The translations under genes and the position numbers were made by a program. A stretch of DNA of 64,000 nt. It comes from Amycolatopsis balhimycina FH 1894 (GTDB taxonomy: Bacteria > Actinomycetota > Actinomycetes > Mycobacteriales > Pseudonocardiaceae). The stretch's first letter is position 1; each line of letters opens with the position of its first letter. Below the pieces are notes generated by a model that ran no database searches, had not been told where the DNA came from, and saw only the letters and a list, made by a program, of their open reading frames with translations. The stretch covers positions 7,999,533-8,063,532 of the forward strand of contig NZ_KB913037.1 of assembly GCF_000384295.1 (NCBI RefSeq). The letters are read 5' to 3'. Positions 403 to 53,149 of the stretch are shown here, one piece after another.

Positions 403-1065
403 TCAGCCAGCCGGTCGGGCGGGCTCCGGTTCGGCCGGCGCCCGCTTCTTGAACACCTTGACCAGCCCGATCGCCCCGGCCAGCGCGAACACGCCGTAGC
501 AGGCGAGCAGCGCCGGCGGCGTGTCGCCGGTCAGGGCGTCGCCGAGGACGACCACGGCGACCGTGCCGGGCACGCTCCCGAGCAGCGTACCGGCCAGGTA
601 CGGGGTGAGCCGCACGGAGGATACCCCGCAGAGGTAGCTGAACGGTGCGAACGGCACCACCGGGATGACCCGGAGCGAGGTGATGGCGAGGACGCCGCCG
701 TCCGAAAGGCGGTCGTTGACCGTTTTCACCGCGGACCGGTGCAGGTGCCGGGTCACCAGGTCGCGGCCGAGCAGCCGGGCCAGGCCGAAGGACAGGCCCG
801 CCGCGATGGTGGTGGCGACCAGGCCGATCGCGATCCCGGCCGCGGTGCCCACGAGCAGGCCGGCGGCGAGGTTGAACACCGTCCGCGGGATCGGCGCGAC
901 GGTGAGCAGCGAATAGGCGACGAACAGCACGAGCGGGGTCGCGGGGCCGGTGGCGGCGGCCCAGGCCCGCAGGTCGGCCGGACCGGGGATCGGCAGCAGC
1001 ACCGCGGCCGCCGCGAAGGCGGCGAGCACGGCGAGCGCGACGATCAGCTTGGTGCGGCCGGACAC
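403..1065 (-). CDS. TVP38/TMEM64 (DedA-like) family membrane protein
   Basis: A 220-residue integral membrane protein starting at GTG. Hydrophobic segments lie near residues 8-25, 45-65, 70-98, 135-160 and 185-205. The family signature is visible as FNLAAGLLVGTAAGIAIG followed by a re-entrant, proline-rich stretch (SLRVIPVVPFAPFSYLCG). The tail is basic (KVFKKRAPAEPEPA) and probably cytoplasmic. Members of this family are linked to lipid scrambling or flippase-like roles in membranes; the substrate here cannot be told. It stands alone, divergent from nothing obvious, between the kinase and the IS region. Family assignment is good, function is general. Confidence 0.8.
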   Translation of the reverse strand: MSGRTKLIVALAVLAAFAAAAVLLPIPGPADLRAWAAATGPATPLVLFVAYSLLTVAPIPRTVFNLAAGLLVGTAAGIAIGLVATTIAAGLSFGLARLLGRDLVTRHLHRSAVKTVNDRLSDGGVLAITSLRVIPVVPFAPFSYLCGVSSVRLTPYLAGTLLGSVPGTVAVVVLGDALTGDTPPALLACYGVFALAGAIGLVKVFKKRAPAEPEPARPAG

Positions 1066-1130
1066 CCACTCGAGCCTACCGGCCGCGGGTGAGCGGCCCC
1101 CGGCACCTCCGGCAGCCCGTGGCCGGGTGT

Positions 1131-1149
1131 CCTGAATGACTCATTCAGG
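1131..1149. repeat. Palindromic repeat, unit 1 (TGAATGACTCATTCA core)
   Basis: CCTGAATGACTCATTCAGG is a near-perfect palindrome, followed by ACCTCCGGTGTCCT. It is the left-hand surviving unit of a tandem palindrome run that continues at 2,739 and 4,097 after two insertion sequences are removed. Confidence 0.85.
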
Positions 1150-1245
1150 ACCTCCGGTGTCCTGGCTCGTAAATCGAGGTGACCGTGGGCGCGCGGCAGC
1201 GCCCCCGGCGTAGCGCAGCGGAGCCGGGGCCCGGGGTGACACACG

Positions 1246-2511
1246 TTAGGCGGCGTGGGGTTGCAGGGTGACGTGTTGGCCGGTGAGGAGTTCGAGGTCG
1301 CGGATGAGGGTGCGGCGGCGCCGCACGGTGGTATGCCGGGACAGGTAGTGGTCCTCGCCGAGGTCCTGGTAACGGGCGTCGGGGTCCGCCAGCACATGCC
1401 AGACGATCTTGAGGACCGAGTTGCCGACCGCGACGATGGCGCGTTTCTTGCCCCGGCGGCGCGCCAGGCGCCGGTAGCGTTCACCGAGGAAGGTGTGGGT
1501 GCGCGACACCCCAGCCACGACCTCGCCGAGGGTCCCGGCCAGCCAGGGATTGCCTTTGCCGGTGGAACCGTTGCGGGTGACAGCGGCGGACTGGTGCACG
1601 ATCGGGGCGAACTTGGCCCACGACACCAGATGCCCGGGGGTGGGGAACCGGGTCATGTCCACCCCGATCTCGGCGATCAGCTCCTGGGCGGAGCGGATCC
1701 CGATCCCGGTGATCTCATCCAGCCGCCGCGCTTCAGCGCGAAAGGGGGCCATCGCCTCCTCGATCGCAGCGTTGACCTTCTCGACATCGGCACCGACCTG
1801 GTCGATGCGGTCGATCATCGTGCGGGTCAGGAACGCATGATGATCGGTGAAGTGCCCGGTCAACGCCTCCTCCAGGACACCGATCTTGGTGCGCATCCGG
1901 GTCCGGGCCAGCTGCGCCAGCACCCGCGGGTTCCGGTTGCCCGCGATCATGGCCTCCAGCATCTCCCGGCCGGAGACACCGAGGATGTCGCTGATCACGC
2001 TGGAGAGTTTGATCTGGGCGTCTTCCAGCAGTTTCTCCAGCCTCTGCCGTTCCCGGGTGCGGTCACGGATCAAGGTGCGCCGATACCGGGTCAGGTCCCG
2101 TAGCGCCCGGATCGGGGCCGGGTGGACCAGGCTGGGCCGGCACATCCCGCGTTCGGTGACTTTGGCCAGCCAGACCGCGTCGAGGGTGTCGGTCTTCGGG
2201 CGGCCGGGCAGGTGCTTGACGTGTCTGGGGTTGAGCAGCCAGCACTCGAACCCTTCGGCTTCCAGCAGGTAGAACACCGGTTTCCAGTAGGAACTGGTGG
2301 CTTCCATCGCCACCCGGGTCACTCGCTCGGCCCGCAACCAGTCCGCCAGCTCCAGCAACGACCGGGAGAACGTGTCGTAGGAGCGGACCTCTTGCTGACG
2401 CCGGCCCGGCCGGTCTGAGGGCACCCGCACACACGCGACCAGGCCGGTCTTGCCCAGATCCAGGCCGGCCACCCGGTCGACGATCTGGTCGAGTTCATCC
2501 ACCTCTTCCAT
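1246..2511 (-). CDS. IS110-family DEDD transposase (recombinase)
   Basis: A 421-residue protein. The RuvC-like N-terminal domain has GLDLGKTG with the first acidic residue, AMEATSSYW with the second, and GRPKTDTLDAVWLAKV with the last pair. A coiled, charged middle follows. The C-terminal Tnp_20 domain has the helix-hairpin-helix ITGIGIRSAQELIAEIG and the conserved serine region SAAVTRNGSTGKGNPW. I chose the ATG at 2,509-2,511 because GAGGTG sits just upstream; a GTG at 2,530-2,532 would add seven residues. IS110 recombinases work with an element-encoded bridge RNA that recognises donor and target DNA. All key motifs are present, so the enzyme is probably active. Confidence 0.92.
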   Translation of the reverse strand: MEEVDELDQIVDRVAGLDLGKTGLVACVRVPSDRPGRRQQEVRSYDTFSRSLLELADWLRAERVTRVAMEATSSYWKPVFYLLEAEGFECWLLNPRHVKHLPGRPKTDTLDAVWLAKVTERGMCRPSLVHPAPIRALRDLTRYRRTLIRDRTRERQRLEKLLEDAQIKLSSVISDILGVSGREMLEAMIAGNRNPRVLAQLARTRMRTKIGVLEEALTGHFTDHHAFLTRTMIDRIDQVGADVEKVNAAIEEAMAPFRAEARRLDEITGIGIRSAQELIAEIGVDMTRFPTPGHLVSWAKFAPIVHQSAAVTRNGSTGKGNPWLAGTLGEVVAGVSRTHTFLGERYRRLARRRGKKRAIVAVGNSVLKIVWHVLADPDARYQDLGEDHYLSRHTTVRRRRTLIRDLELLTGQHVTLQPHAA

Positions 2512-2544
2512 GATCACCTCGCTTCGGTTCACACCACCGACAGG

Positions 2545-2738
2545 TGGTCGCCTGGGGAGTCAGGGGATGCAAGCCAAGCCGGGCTCGCGTGCTCGAAGCA
2601 ACAATGCAGGACCCTCAACAACTCCCAGCGTCAGACTGAATGACGGCCTCGACCCAGCGCCAAGGACACACGACGTCACACAGGCGACCAGACACGATTT
2701 TCACCCCAGCACGGACGTCCCGCCAGGGACACCGACGA
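2545..2738 (-). ncRNA. Candidate IS110 bridge RNA in the left-end non-coding region
   Basis: IS110 elements of the IS621 type transcribe a structured guide RNA from the non-coding DNA upstream of the transposase. Here that region, read on the minus strand, contains GTCATTCAG (2,636-2,644), identical for nine bases to the left side of the occupied target, and 28 bases further GGTCCT (2,608-2,613), complementary to AGGACC on the right side of the palindrome unit. Both candidate guides end on the same dinucleotide (AG/CT), as a target-binding loop should. A weaker donor-loop candidate is CGAGCC (2,582-2,587), which also forms the element's right-end border (1,164-1,169). RNA ends and fold are not established. 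Confidence 0.55.
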
Positions 2739-2757
2739 CTGAATGACTCATTCAGGA
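2739..2757. repeat. Palindromic repeat, unit 2 (between the two IS elements)
   Basis: CTGAATGACTCATTCAGG is the unit into which the IS110 element inserted on its left side and beside which the IS3 element inserted on its right side. Its right arm continues as GGAC, which is the IS3 target duplication. Confidence 0.85.
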
Positions 2758-2816
2758 CTGGGCTTGACCCGGTTTGGCGGACACCTCTCATCAGGGACGC
2801 AAGCCCCTGAGAACGG

Positions 2817-3152
2817 ATGTCCCTCATCATGGAACCCGTGGCCAAGAAGAAACCCCGCGCCCGTCAACGACCCCGGCGGGTGTTCACACCTGAGTTCAAA
2901 GCGCAGATCGTTGAGCTGGTGCAGCGCGGCGAGCGAACCGTCCCGGAGGTGGTCCGGGACTTCGAGCTGACCGACTCAGTGGTCCGCAAGTGGATCGTCC
3001 AGGCCGAACGCGACGCCGGGACCCGCACCGACGGGCTGACCAGCGACGACAAGACCGAACTCGCCGCCCTCCGGAAAGAGAACACACGGCTGCGGGAAGA
3101 CGTGGAAATCCTCAAACGAGCGACAGCTTTCTTCGCGAAGGAGACCCGGTGA
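2817..3152 (+). CDS. IS3-family transposase OrfA (DNA-binding subunit)
   Basis: A 111-residue protein. Residues ~18-60 form the HTH_Tnp_1 helix-turn-helix (RRVFTPEFKAQIVELV ... VVRDFELTDSVVRKWI), followed by a leucine-zipper-like coiled coil (ELAALRKENTRLREDVEILKRA) ending FFAKETR. In IS3 elements this part binds the terminal repeats and oligomerises. The start at 2,817 is the first ATG; an ATG at 2,829 is an alternative. The stop overlaps the OrfB GTG by four bases (GTGA), so OrfB may be made by coupled re-initiation or by frameshifting. Confidence 0.9.
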   Translation: MSLIMEPVAKKKPRARQRPRRVFTPEFKAQIVELVQRGERTVPEVVRDFELTDSVVRKWIVQAERDAGTRTDGLTSDDKTELAALRKENTRLREDVEILKRATAFFAKETR

Positions 3153-4042
3153 ACGTTTACCCGTTCATCGAGGCGGAGAACGCCAGCGGCAAGGGCACTG
3201 TCAAGCGTGCCTGCGCGCTGCTCAAGGTCTCCCGTGCCGCCTATTACACCCACCGCGCAGGCCCGTCCGCCCGCGAACTGACCGACACCGCCCTGACCGA
3301 CCACATCGCGCAAGTGCACGAGGAGTCCCGCGGCACCTACGGTTCACCGCGGGTGCACGCCGAACTGCAGGCCCAAGGCCACCGCCATGCCCGCAAACGC
3401 GTCGCCCGGCTGATGCGCCAAGCAGGCCTGGCCGGACGGACACCGAAACGATGGCGCACCACCACCATCGCCGACCCCGCCGCCCCGGCCCGCCCGGACC
3501 TGATCACCCGCGACTTCACCTGCCACCCCGAGAACATCAACACGCGGTGGTGCGGCGACATCACCTACATCCCCACCTGGGAAGGCTGGCTCTACCTGGC
3601 CACCGTGATCGACCTCGCCTCCCGCAAGGTCATCGGCTGGGCCACCGCCGACCACCTGCGCACCGACCTCATCGACCAGGCCCTGCGTGATGCGCTCACC
3701 CAGCGCCGCCCCGCTCCCGGGGTGATCTTCCACTCCGACCGCGGCTGCCAGTACACCTCCGCCCAGTTCGCCCGCACCGCCACCGACGCCGGCGTCCGGC
3801 TCTCGGTCGGTCGCACAGGCCAGTGCTGGGACAACGCGGTGGCCGAGTCGTTCTTCGCGACCATCAAAACCGAACTGCTCGACCGGCAACCTTGGCCGAC
3901 CAGAACCCGCGCTCACCAGGCGATCTTCAGCTACATCGAAGGCTGGTACAACACCCGCCGCCGGCACTCCAGCCTCGGCTACCTCAGCCCCAGCGCCTAC
4001 GAAACAACCACTCACCCGGCTACCGAACCTCAGGTAGCCTGA
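3149..4042 (+). CDS. IS3-family transposase OrfB (DDE integrase subunit)
   Basis: The 297-residue catalytic subunit. It has the N-terminal HTH_21 region (RACALLKVSRAAYY ... GTYGSPRVHAELQ) and an rve integrase core with all three acidic residues visible: WCGDITYIPT, HSDRGCQYTS and AVAESFFATIKTEL. The C-terminus has the usual YNTRRRHSSLGYLSP box. The frame is open further upstream, to 2,990, overlapping OrfA in another frame, which would permit an OrfAB fusion by frameshifting; I see no A6G-type slippery run. The GTG at 3,149 is therefore taken as the likely start. The gene appears intact. Confidence 0.9.
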   Translation: MNVYPFIEAENASGKGTVKRACALLKVSRAAYYTHRAGPSARELTDTALTDHIAQVHEESRGTYGSPRVHAELQAQGHRHARKRVARLMRQAGLAGRTPKRWRTTTIADPAAPARPDLITRDFTCHPENINTRWCGDITYIPTWEGWLYLATVIDLASRKVIGWATADHLRTDLIDQALRDALTQRRPAPGVIFHSDRGCQYTSAQFARTATDAGVRLSVGRTGQCWDNAVAESFFATIKTELLDRQPWPTRTRAHQAIFSYIEGWYNTRRRHSSLGYLSPSAYETTTHPATEPQVA

Positions 4043-4096
4043 TCTCACTCATCGACCCTGTCTGCCCAAACGGGGCAAGCCCAGGACCTCCGGTGA

Positions 4097-4115
4097 CCTG
4101 AATGAGTCATTCAGG
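4097..4115. repeat. Palindromic repeat, unit 3
   Basis: CCTGAATGAGTCATTCAGG with flanks CCTCCGGTGA before and ACCTCCGGTGAGCGG after. It is the last unit of the run and lies about 60 bases before the start of the polymerase-domain gene. Confidence 0.85.
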
Positions 4116-53093: not shown

Positions 53094-53149
53094 TTGAATG
53101 ACTCATTCAGGTCTCCGGAGGTCTTGAATGAGTCATTCAAGACCTCCGG
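53094..53149. repeat. Two palindromic repeat units (TGAATGA-TCATTCA family)
   Basis: TTGAATGACTCATTCAG is followed by a perfect 35-bp palindrome (53,115-53,149): CCGGAGGTCTTGAATGA, centre G, and its complement. These are the same family as the units at 1,131-4,115, here without any insertion sequence. Confidence 0.85.

Follow-up and report, generated by a model that had tools for sequence, protein, structure and literature searches.

Why does an IS110-family element lie inside one unit of a palindromic repeat, and does the element itself specify that address? The question is raised by the window analysed here (the whole stretch of 64,000 nucleotides from Amycolatopsis balhimycina FH 1894), which carries such an element on its minus strand. 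From the letters alone, a first-pass annotation had proposed that the non-coding left end encodes the guides of a bridge RNA and that these match the palindrome occupied.

The element, its recombinase and its boundaries

1162–2740, minus strand: IS110 element, counted with the core dinucleotide at either end (junction sequences)
1246–2532, minus strand: DEDD/RuvC plus Tnp recombinase, 428 aa from the first listed start (PF01548, PF02371, transpos_IS110)

The open reading frame at 1246–2532 had been taken for the recombinase of an IS110 element, and domain searches bear this out: it matches PF01548 (1.7e-28) and PF02371 (7.9e-13), i.e., a RuvC-like DEDD domain and a C-terminal domain, as well as the NCBIfam equivalog transpos_IS110 with 247.8 bits against a cut-off of 140. 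Sequence matches to solved structures were obtained only with IS621 (8wt6, E = 1.3e-8) and ISCro4. The DEDD residues are present (D in VAGLDLGK, E in VAMEATSSY, two D in KTDTLDAVW), as is a candidate catalytic serine (S in PIVHQSA), their roles being assigned after passages of PMC11208158. The alignment with IS621 takes in the E, both D of KTDTLDAVW and the region of the serine; the first D lies outside it. Parts of PMC11187229 describe a G--P----S(T)G motif in the C-terminal domain of the IS110 family. Here, and in the recombinases of the group, P....SA stands in place of the SG reported to be highly conserved: in 50 rows, repeated copies included, we count SA in 43, SG in 3, ST in 1 and no match in 3.

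The non-coding left end, upstream of the gene, spans 208 nt (2533–2740) and the right end, downstream, 84 nt (1162–1245). The element thus shows the trait of the IS110 group, a longer non-coding region upstream of the gene, and not that of the IS1111 group, in which this region lies downstream. Subterminal inverted repeats, 7–17 bp long in the IS1111 group according to passages of PMC11208160, were not seen by eye in the element ends.

CTG is common to both junctions (plus strand, 1162–1164 and 2739–2741), as first noted. Excision of 1162–2740 had also been said to restore the palindrome; this deletion takes out both core copies and yields GTGTCGAATGAC, whereas the palindrome, GTGTCCTGAATGACTCATTCAGGACT, is restored by deleting 1162–2738 (or 1164–2740). 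One core copy of 1162–2740 belongs to the target, and the mobile unit is 1162–2738 or 1164–2740. The core reads AG on the gene strand and CT on the other. At locus L131 the base before the core is T at the left junction vs C at the right, so that only AG is common; comparison of the junctions supports the AG/CT core dinucleotide proposed earlier.

A conserved RNA structure in the left end

2545–2690, minus strand: predicted bridge RNA core with closing stem 2681–2690/2545–2554 (covariation)
2629–2675, minus strand: target-binding loop arm, lower stem 2672–2675/2629–2632, apical stem 2659–2662/2644–2647 (pairing in the alignment)
2555–2626, minus strand: donor-binding loop arm, lower stem 2619–2626/2555–2562, apical stem 2598–2603/2588–2592 (pairing in the alignment)

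A profile built from 7 left ends finds matches at E ≤ 0.01 in 69 of 97 loci, some of which are copies of one element; these are 54 of the 80 loci of a contig search (the best 80 of 193 relatives) and 15 of 17 genome stretches. RNAalifold, applied to 27 aligned left ends, returns the closing stem and parts of two arms, and a structure of 31 pairs built by hand adds to this result the lower stem of the donor arm. The long stem encloses both loop arms. Over the 27 left ends, 88.5% of cells are paired in the 31-pair structure and 31–49% when it is slid, and 16 of the 31 pairs are changed on both sides vs 7.5 in shuffles (0/500).

The stems contribute unequally. Eight of the ten pairs of the closing stem are changed on both sides, with 96.7% of cells paired (27 left ends); the target arm reaches 98.1% in its lower and 95.4% in its apical stem, and the apical stem of the donor arm 100%. 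The lower stem of the donor arm, which falls in a gapped part of the alignment, is weak (63.0%). Folded singly, the left end of the window shows no excess stability over shuffles (z −0.02), so it is covariation alone that argues for the structure. An Rfam scan of 1000–3000 returned no family at E ≤ 1. The conserved, covarying fold agrees with the bridge-type RNA that the first-pass annotation had placed in the left end.

Most of the left ends displayed also contain, after a GC-rich stretch, a nearly invariant TGAAAAT box (2695–2707 in the window), which could be a promoter element, or else form the RNA's 5′ part.

Covariation of the target guides with the flanks

2636–2643, minus strand: left target guide TCATTCAG, 3′ strand of the target loop, identical to left target plus core (covariation)
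2663–2669, minus strand: right target guide GTGTCCT, 5′ strand of the target loop (covariation)
Target sequence for the guides of the window element: AGTCATTCAGGACAC

From 65 left ends at E ≤ 1e-8, 8 duplicates were taken out, leaving 57, and four rows were dropped, namely L058b (internal duplicate), L067 (partial), and L127 and L134 (near-identical copies). The resulting 53 distinct left ends include that of the window and 47 from the contig search; a right end was available for 30 and a readable right flank for 29. Left junctions were set by alignment column, without adjusting to the guide: the junction column is the second core base, and the fixed frame of six bases takes in five of the target and the first of the core. 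For distant relatives the left boundary is uncertain. The sequences are related, so that the permutation counts below are not true probabilities.

The left guide follows the flank closely. Six RNA columns equal the left-target frame with z of 4.8–9.8 per column, and left ends agree with their own flanks at 5.11 of 6 bases vs 2.27 in permuted pairs (n = 53); the match is 6/6 in 34 of them, 5 in 9, 4 in 1, 3 in 3, 2 in 3 and 1 in 3. Restricting the comparison to the 44 distinct guides gives 5.07 for own and 2.19 for swapped pairs. In the window element, 2644 extends the match, and GTCATTCAG at 2636–2644 is the left half of the occupied site, which upholds the left guide of the first-pass annotation.

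The right guide, GTGTCCT, is complementary at 7/7 positions to AGGACAC at the window site. Counted with the core, the agreement of right guides with their own flanks is 5.24/7 vs 4.09 permuted (0/20000, n = 29), with 7 matches in 4, 6 in 7, 5 in 12, 4 in 4 and 3 in 2 of the 29; thus 18 of the 29 do not exceed 5 of 7, and swapped pairs, which mostly give 4, come up to this level as well. The two target guides overlap on the core AG and lie on opposite strands of one internal loop.

A different right guide had originally been read, GGTCCT at 2608–2613, which together with the left guide at 2636–2644 implies the guide order of IS621 and a single mispair with the window site. GGTCCT pairs fully with AGGACC, which forms the right half of the site in three of the five near copies of the element described below (L127, L128 and L130), and both guide candidates of that reading end on the core. 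However, 2608–2613 is located in the other loop, on the 5′ strand of the donor loop, and this strand scores 3.69/6 against its own right targets vs 3.90 permuted, 9827 of 10000 permutations being at least as high (n = 29), whereas the strand holding 2663–2669 tracks the right target (4.79 vs 3.65, 0/10000). With GTGTCCT pairing at 7/7, the mispair at the window site disappears and, the other right guide being wrong, so is the IS621 order that it implied; the direct contrast of targets reported below finds the opposite order. We therefore regard GGTCCT as a most improbable right guide. The expectation that both guides fall in one internal loop is borne out with 2663–2669 and fails for 2608–2613.

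Donor guide and handshake positions

2634–2635, minus strand: target-loop handshake guide TC, matching the first two left-end bases past the core
2582–2587, minus strand: donor guide CGAGCC, with the same letters as the element's right end beside the core (covariation)

The two bases 3′ of the left guide are identical to the left-end bases in 48 and 46 of the 53 left ends, respectively. For these target-loop handshake positions, own pairs agree at 1.89/2 vs 1.08 permuted (0/10000; n = 47, that is, the 53 less six rows with uncertain left boundaries, poor matches among them).

CGAGCC, initially rated the weaker candidate, proved well supported as a donor guide. It is repeated at the right end (plus strand, 1164–1169), positions −4 to −1 of LD are identical in 30, 29, 30 and 30 of 30 elements, and own pairs reach 5.63/7 vs 4.64 permuted (0/10000). 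In the window element this guide reads CG where the core AG is expected. Past the core, the first base of the donor-loop handshake agrees with the first right-target base at 0.59 vs 0.32 (0/10000), and the second at 0.38 vs 0.22 (186/10000).

The donor loop thus covaries with the LD half, and the RD half went undetected in the same tests: no 5′ guide complementary to the left end was found, own agreement being below permuted at widths 6–9, with or without rG:dT pairs. Since the 5′ strand of the donor loop does not track the left end, one of the four expected guides is missing. The strand itself (2604–2618) is conserved, yet its agreement with the left end is slightly below shuffled.

The palindrome family and the copies of the element

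2739–2754, plus strand: right part of the occupied palindrome (pattern match 2740–2754)
1133–1147, either strand: intact neighbouring palindrome unit (pattern match)
4099–4113, either strand: third unit of the array before insertion, with an IS3-type element now in between (pattern match)
53095–53139: further palindrome units in the window

The palindrome TGAATGANTCATTCA has 154 exact copies in the genome, against 0 for a reversed control pattern, and occurs in 18 of 80 genomes, with up to 558 copies; five exact matches lie in the window vs 0.00 expected in shuffles. The 11-mer specified by the guides, TCATTCAGGAC, occurs 110 times in the genome (50 + 60), 108 of them (49 + 59) within the palindrome, and the palindrome followed by GACAC, as the full right guide specifies, is found at 4 intact sites. 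On the far side of the element, the occupied palindrome continues from GTGTC ending at 1161.

Palindromes are often paired at 30-bp spacing. Before both insertions, the array of the window would have had three units at this spacing. Just beyond the IS110 element, in the same array, we observe by eye an IS3-type element (2759–4083) with overlapping reading frames at 2817–3152 and 2990–4042, ends TGGGCTTG and CAAGCCCA, and GGAC on either side (2755–2758 and 4084–4087).

Gene context was assessed with a home-made GC-frame gene caller in the window and in 20 loci chosen around listed palindromes. Of 25 palindrome clusters, 24 lie outside predicted genes (13 between convergent, 8 between tandem and 3 between divergent genes) and one overlaps a gene by 3 bases; three of the 25 border IS elements of the window itself. 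The orthologous locus was compared in 8 genomes. Empty palindrome pairs stand there in G024 and G047, the latter also having a diverged pair; in G028 one unit is exact and another diverged, the flanks being different ones, diverged units occur in G029 and G069, and the palindrome is absent at this locus from G078, G064 and G039. On this comparison, the palindromes themselves come and go between species. Spread of the palindrome by a REP-associated Y1 transposase found no support, PF01797 having no match in the genome. A search of the open-access literature by title and start of abstract found no report of such a palindrome in Amycolatopsis.

The genome holds two copies of the element, which agree at 99.6% over 1580 bases. 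In a comparison with 80 genomes of the genus, three copies at 90% identity and with equal match scores turned up in G024, and the next long match is at 69%. All five near copies (two in the own genome, three in G024) lie at the same base of the palindrome, TCATTC-AG-GAC, as would be expected if the element homed to it; the four other than the window's pair with the right guide over GTCCT only. Given palindromes that are abundant and arrayed at 30-bp spacing, one could imagine that the copies were moved passively by recombination between palindromes, the element being a relic and its guide match a fossil. The junctions, however, are base-precise and of the same kind at five sites, the three G024 copies have equal match scores, the catalytic motifs of the recombinase are present, and guides agree with flanks in relatives from other genomes. 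Such passive movement seems to us hardly credible.

The 69%-identical element, in G068, has four copies and other guides. All four copies lie at the centre of another palindrome, CTCGTGAGTGTTCATG(A/C)CGGTT-AG-AACCG(G/T)CATGAACACTCACGAG, with variations (L136 most), and the guides match the palindrome occupied. The intact pattern occurs 38 times in G068 and is present in 4 of the 80 genomes. Strong palindromes as targets in two lineages could mean that recognition of the palindrome, or of a cruciform, is a property of the recombinase protein, with an incidental similarity to the RNA. When 30 sites were rejoined, 6 beat all of 60 shuffles. Three of these belong to G000/G024 and two to G068; the sixth, L024, looks incidental. 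For the remaining 24 sites, at least one of the 60 shuffles was as palindromic or more so, yet the elements match their own guides, which makes recognition by the protein very unlikely compared with recognition through the guides. Palindromes as a general target rule of the group are not supported by the same data, being confined among the 30 sites to the G000/G024 and G068 lineages. The earlier proposal of homing to an intergenic palindrome family is supported for the window element, given 154 palindrome copies in the genome and 24 of 25 sampled clusters outside predicted genes, and is too broad for the group.

Proposed mechanism and implications

The left end of this IS110-family element very probably encodes a bridge RNA (seekRNA) whose right guide, 5′, and left guide, 3′, share one loop and steer the recombinase to one arm of a repeated palindrome. 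This reading draws on the junctions, the copies, the conservation of the RNA, the covariation of its structure and of guides with flanks, and the empty palindrome pair at the orthologous locus; we infer from these sequences transcription, protein binding, a circular intermediate, catalysis and strand exchange. The RNA would direct the recombinase to one arm of a mostly intergenic palindrome, and a circular element would insert next to the core without target duplication. After strand exchange, the two bases 3′ of the left guide would match the partner DNA, comparable to the handshake guides of IS621, and so would the first base of the donor guide past the core position. The frame of core and guides relative to the gene would mirror that of IS621, the opposite strand reading core CT and the IS621 order.

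Bridge recombinases are under development as programmable editors, and those of IS621 and ISCro4 are both short (328 and 341 aa, respectively). A natural group whose frame is mirrored and whose guides can be read, with dozens of matched guide/target pairs, would supply new enzymes and allow a clean test of which strand rules the protein fixes. It would also lend comparative support to handshake pairing in a group distant from IS621. A dispersed intergenic palindrome used as an address would be a way for a transposon to find harmless sites; insertion of IS110 elements into extragenic palindromes is already known, as passages of PMC11208160 report.

Comparison with known bridge-RNA systems

The order of the guides in the RNA, right guide 5′ and left guide 3′, was examined by a direct contrast run within the group of the window element. 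Identity of the 3′ strand to the left target (LT) is 5.12/7 in own pairs vs 3.84 (0/10000, n = 51), and complementarity of the 5′ strand to the right target (RT) without the core is 3.93/6 vs 3.48 (4/10000, n = 29). The IS621 order was not supported in the same contrast (5′ strand identical to LT, 3.82 vs 3.81; 3′ strand complementary to RT, 3.45 vs 3.41). A Bacillus relative (four copies, 38% identity) has, by eye, the guide order of the window element: its 5′ stretch GTCTTT would pair with AAAGAC, which two of the four copies have in their right flank, and its 3′ stretch ATAAAAAACT equals the left junction of all four.

In IS621 of E. coli, passages of PMC11208160 and PMC11208158 put the left target guide first and the right one second, with the handshake bases (81–82 and 166–167) directly after the right guides. 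IS621 and the window element are alike in several ways. Each has a DEDD plus Tnp recombinase and is inserted into repetitive extragenic palindromes; in each, the RNA lies upstream and has two internal loops, its guides overlap on a dinucleotide core (CT when read on one of the strands), and the handshake guides follow the 3′ guides on their 3′ side. In contrast, the guide order relative to the gene is reversed in the window element, the recombinase has 428 rather than 328 aa and P....SA rather than SG, and one donor guide is undetected in its group. Because the frame, once flipped to the strand opposite the gene, agrees with IS621 in core, guide order and handshake positions, we read these differences of frame as one mirrored block.

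For the other systems we rely on text passages of PMC11187229. ISEc21, of the IS110 type, likewise yields its guide RNA from the upstream non-coding region, but its bottom-strand match lies 5′ of the top-strand match, opposite to the window element. RNAs of the IS1111 type (ISEc11, ISPa11, ISKpn4) carry the top-strand complement 5′ of the bottom-strand match, as here, this order being described as reversed in IS110 and tested there on ISEc21; unlike the window element, however, the IS1111 type has its RNA downstream of the gene, longer subterminal inverted repeats and transposases of 330–350 aa. The founding IS110 subgroup (395–455 aa) shares with the window element both the length class and the upstream non-coding region, and these passages state no guide order for it.

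No guide order for the long-recombinase subgroup was found in the open-access literature by title and start of abstract, and text passages of PMC12045711, PMC12859917 and PMC13264000 mention no mirrored order in a group with upstream RNA. The element appears to be a further IS110 bridge-RNA system whose mirrored guide order combined with an upstream RNA seems unpublished in the titles, abstracts and text passages covered. Taken as a whole, the long-recombinase IS110 subgroup around it (53 distinct left ends sampled, mostly actinobacterial) probably represents a third bridge-RNA architecture, in which the RNA lies upstream as in IS110 and the guides are ordered as in IS1111. With respect to the gene, the core, the guides and both donor halves would then form a single inverted block that keeps both handshake positions. 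If so, guide order would not separate IS110 from IS1111, the frame would have flipped during evolution, and guides would have been re-aimed at two different palindrome families within one genus.
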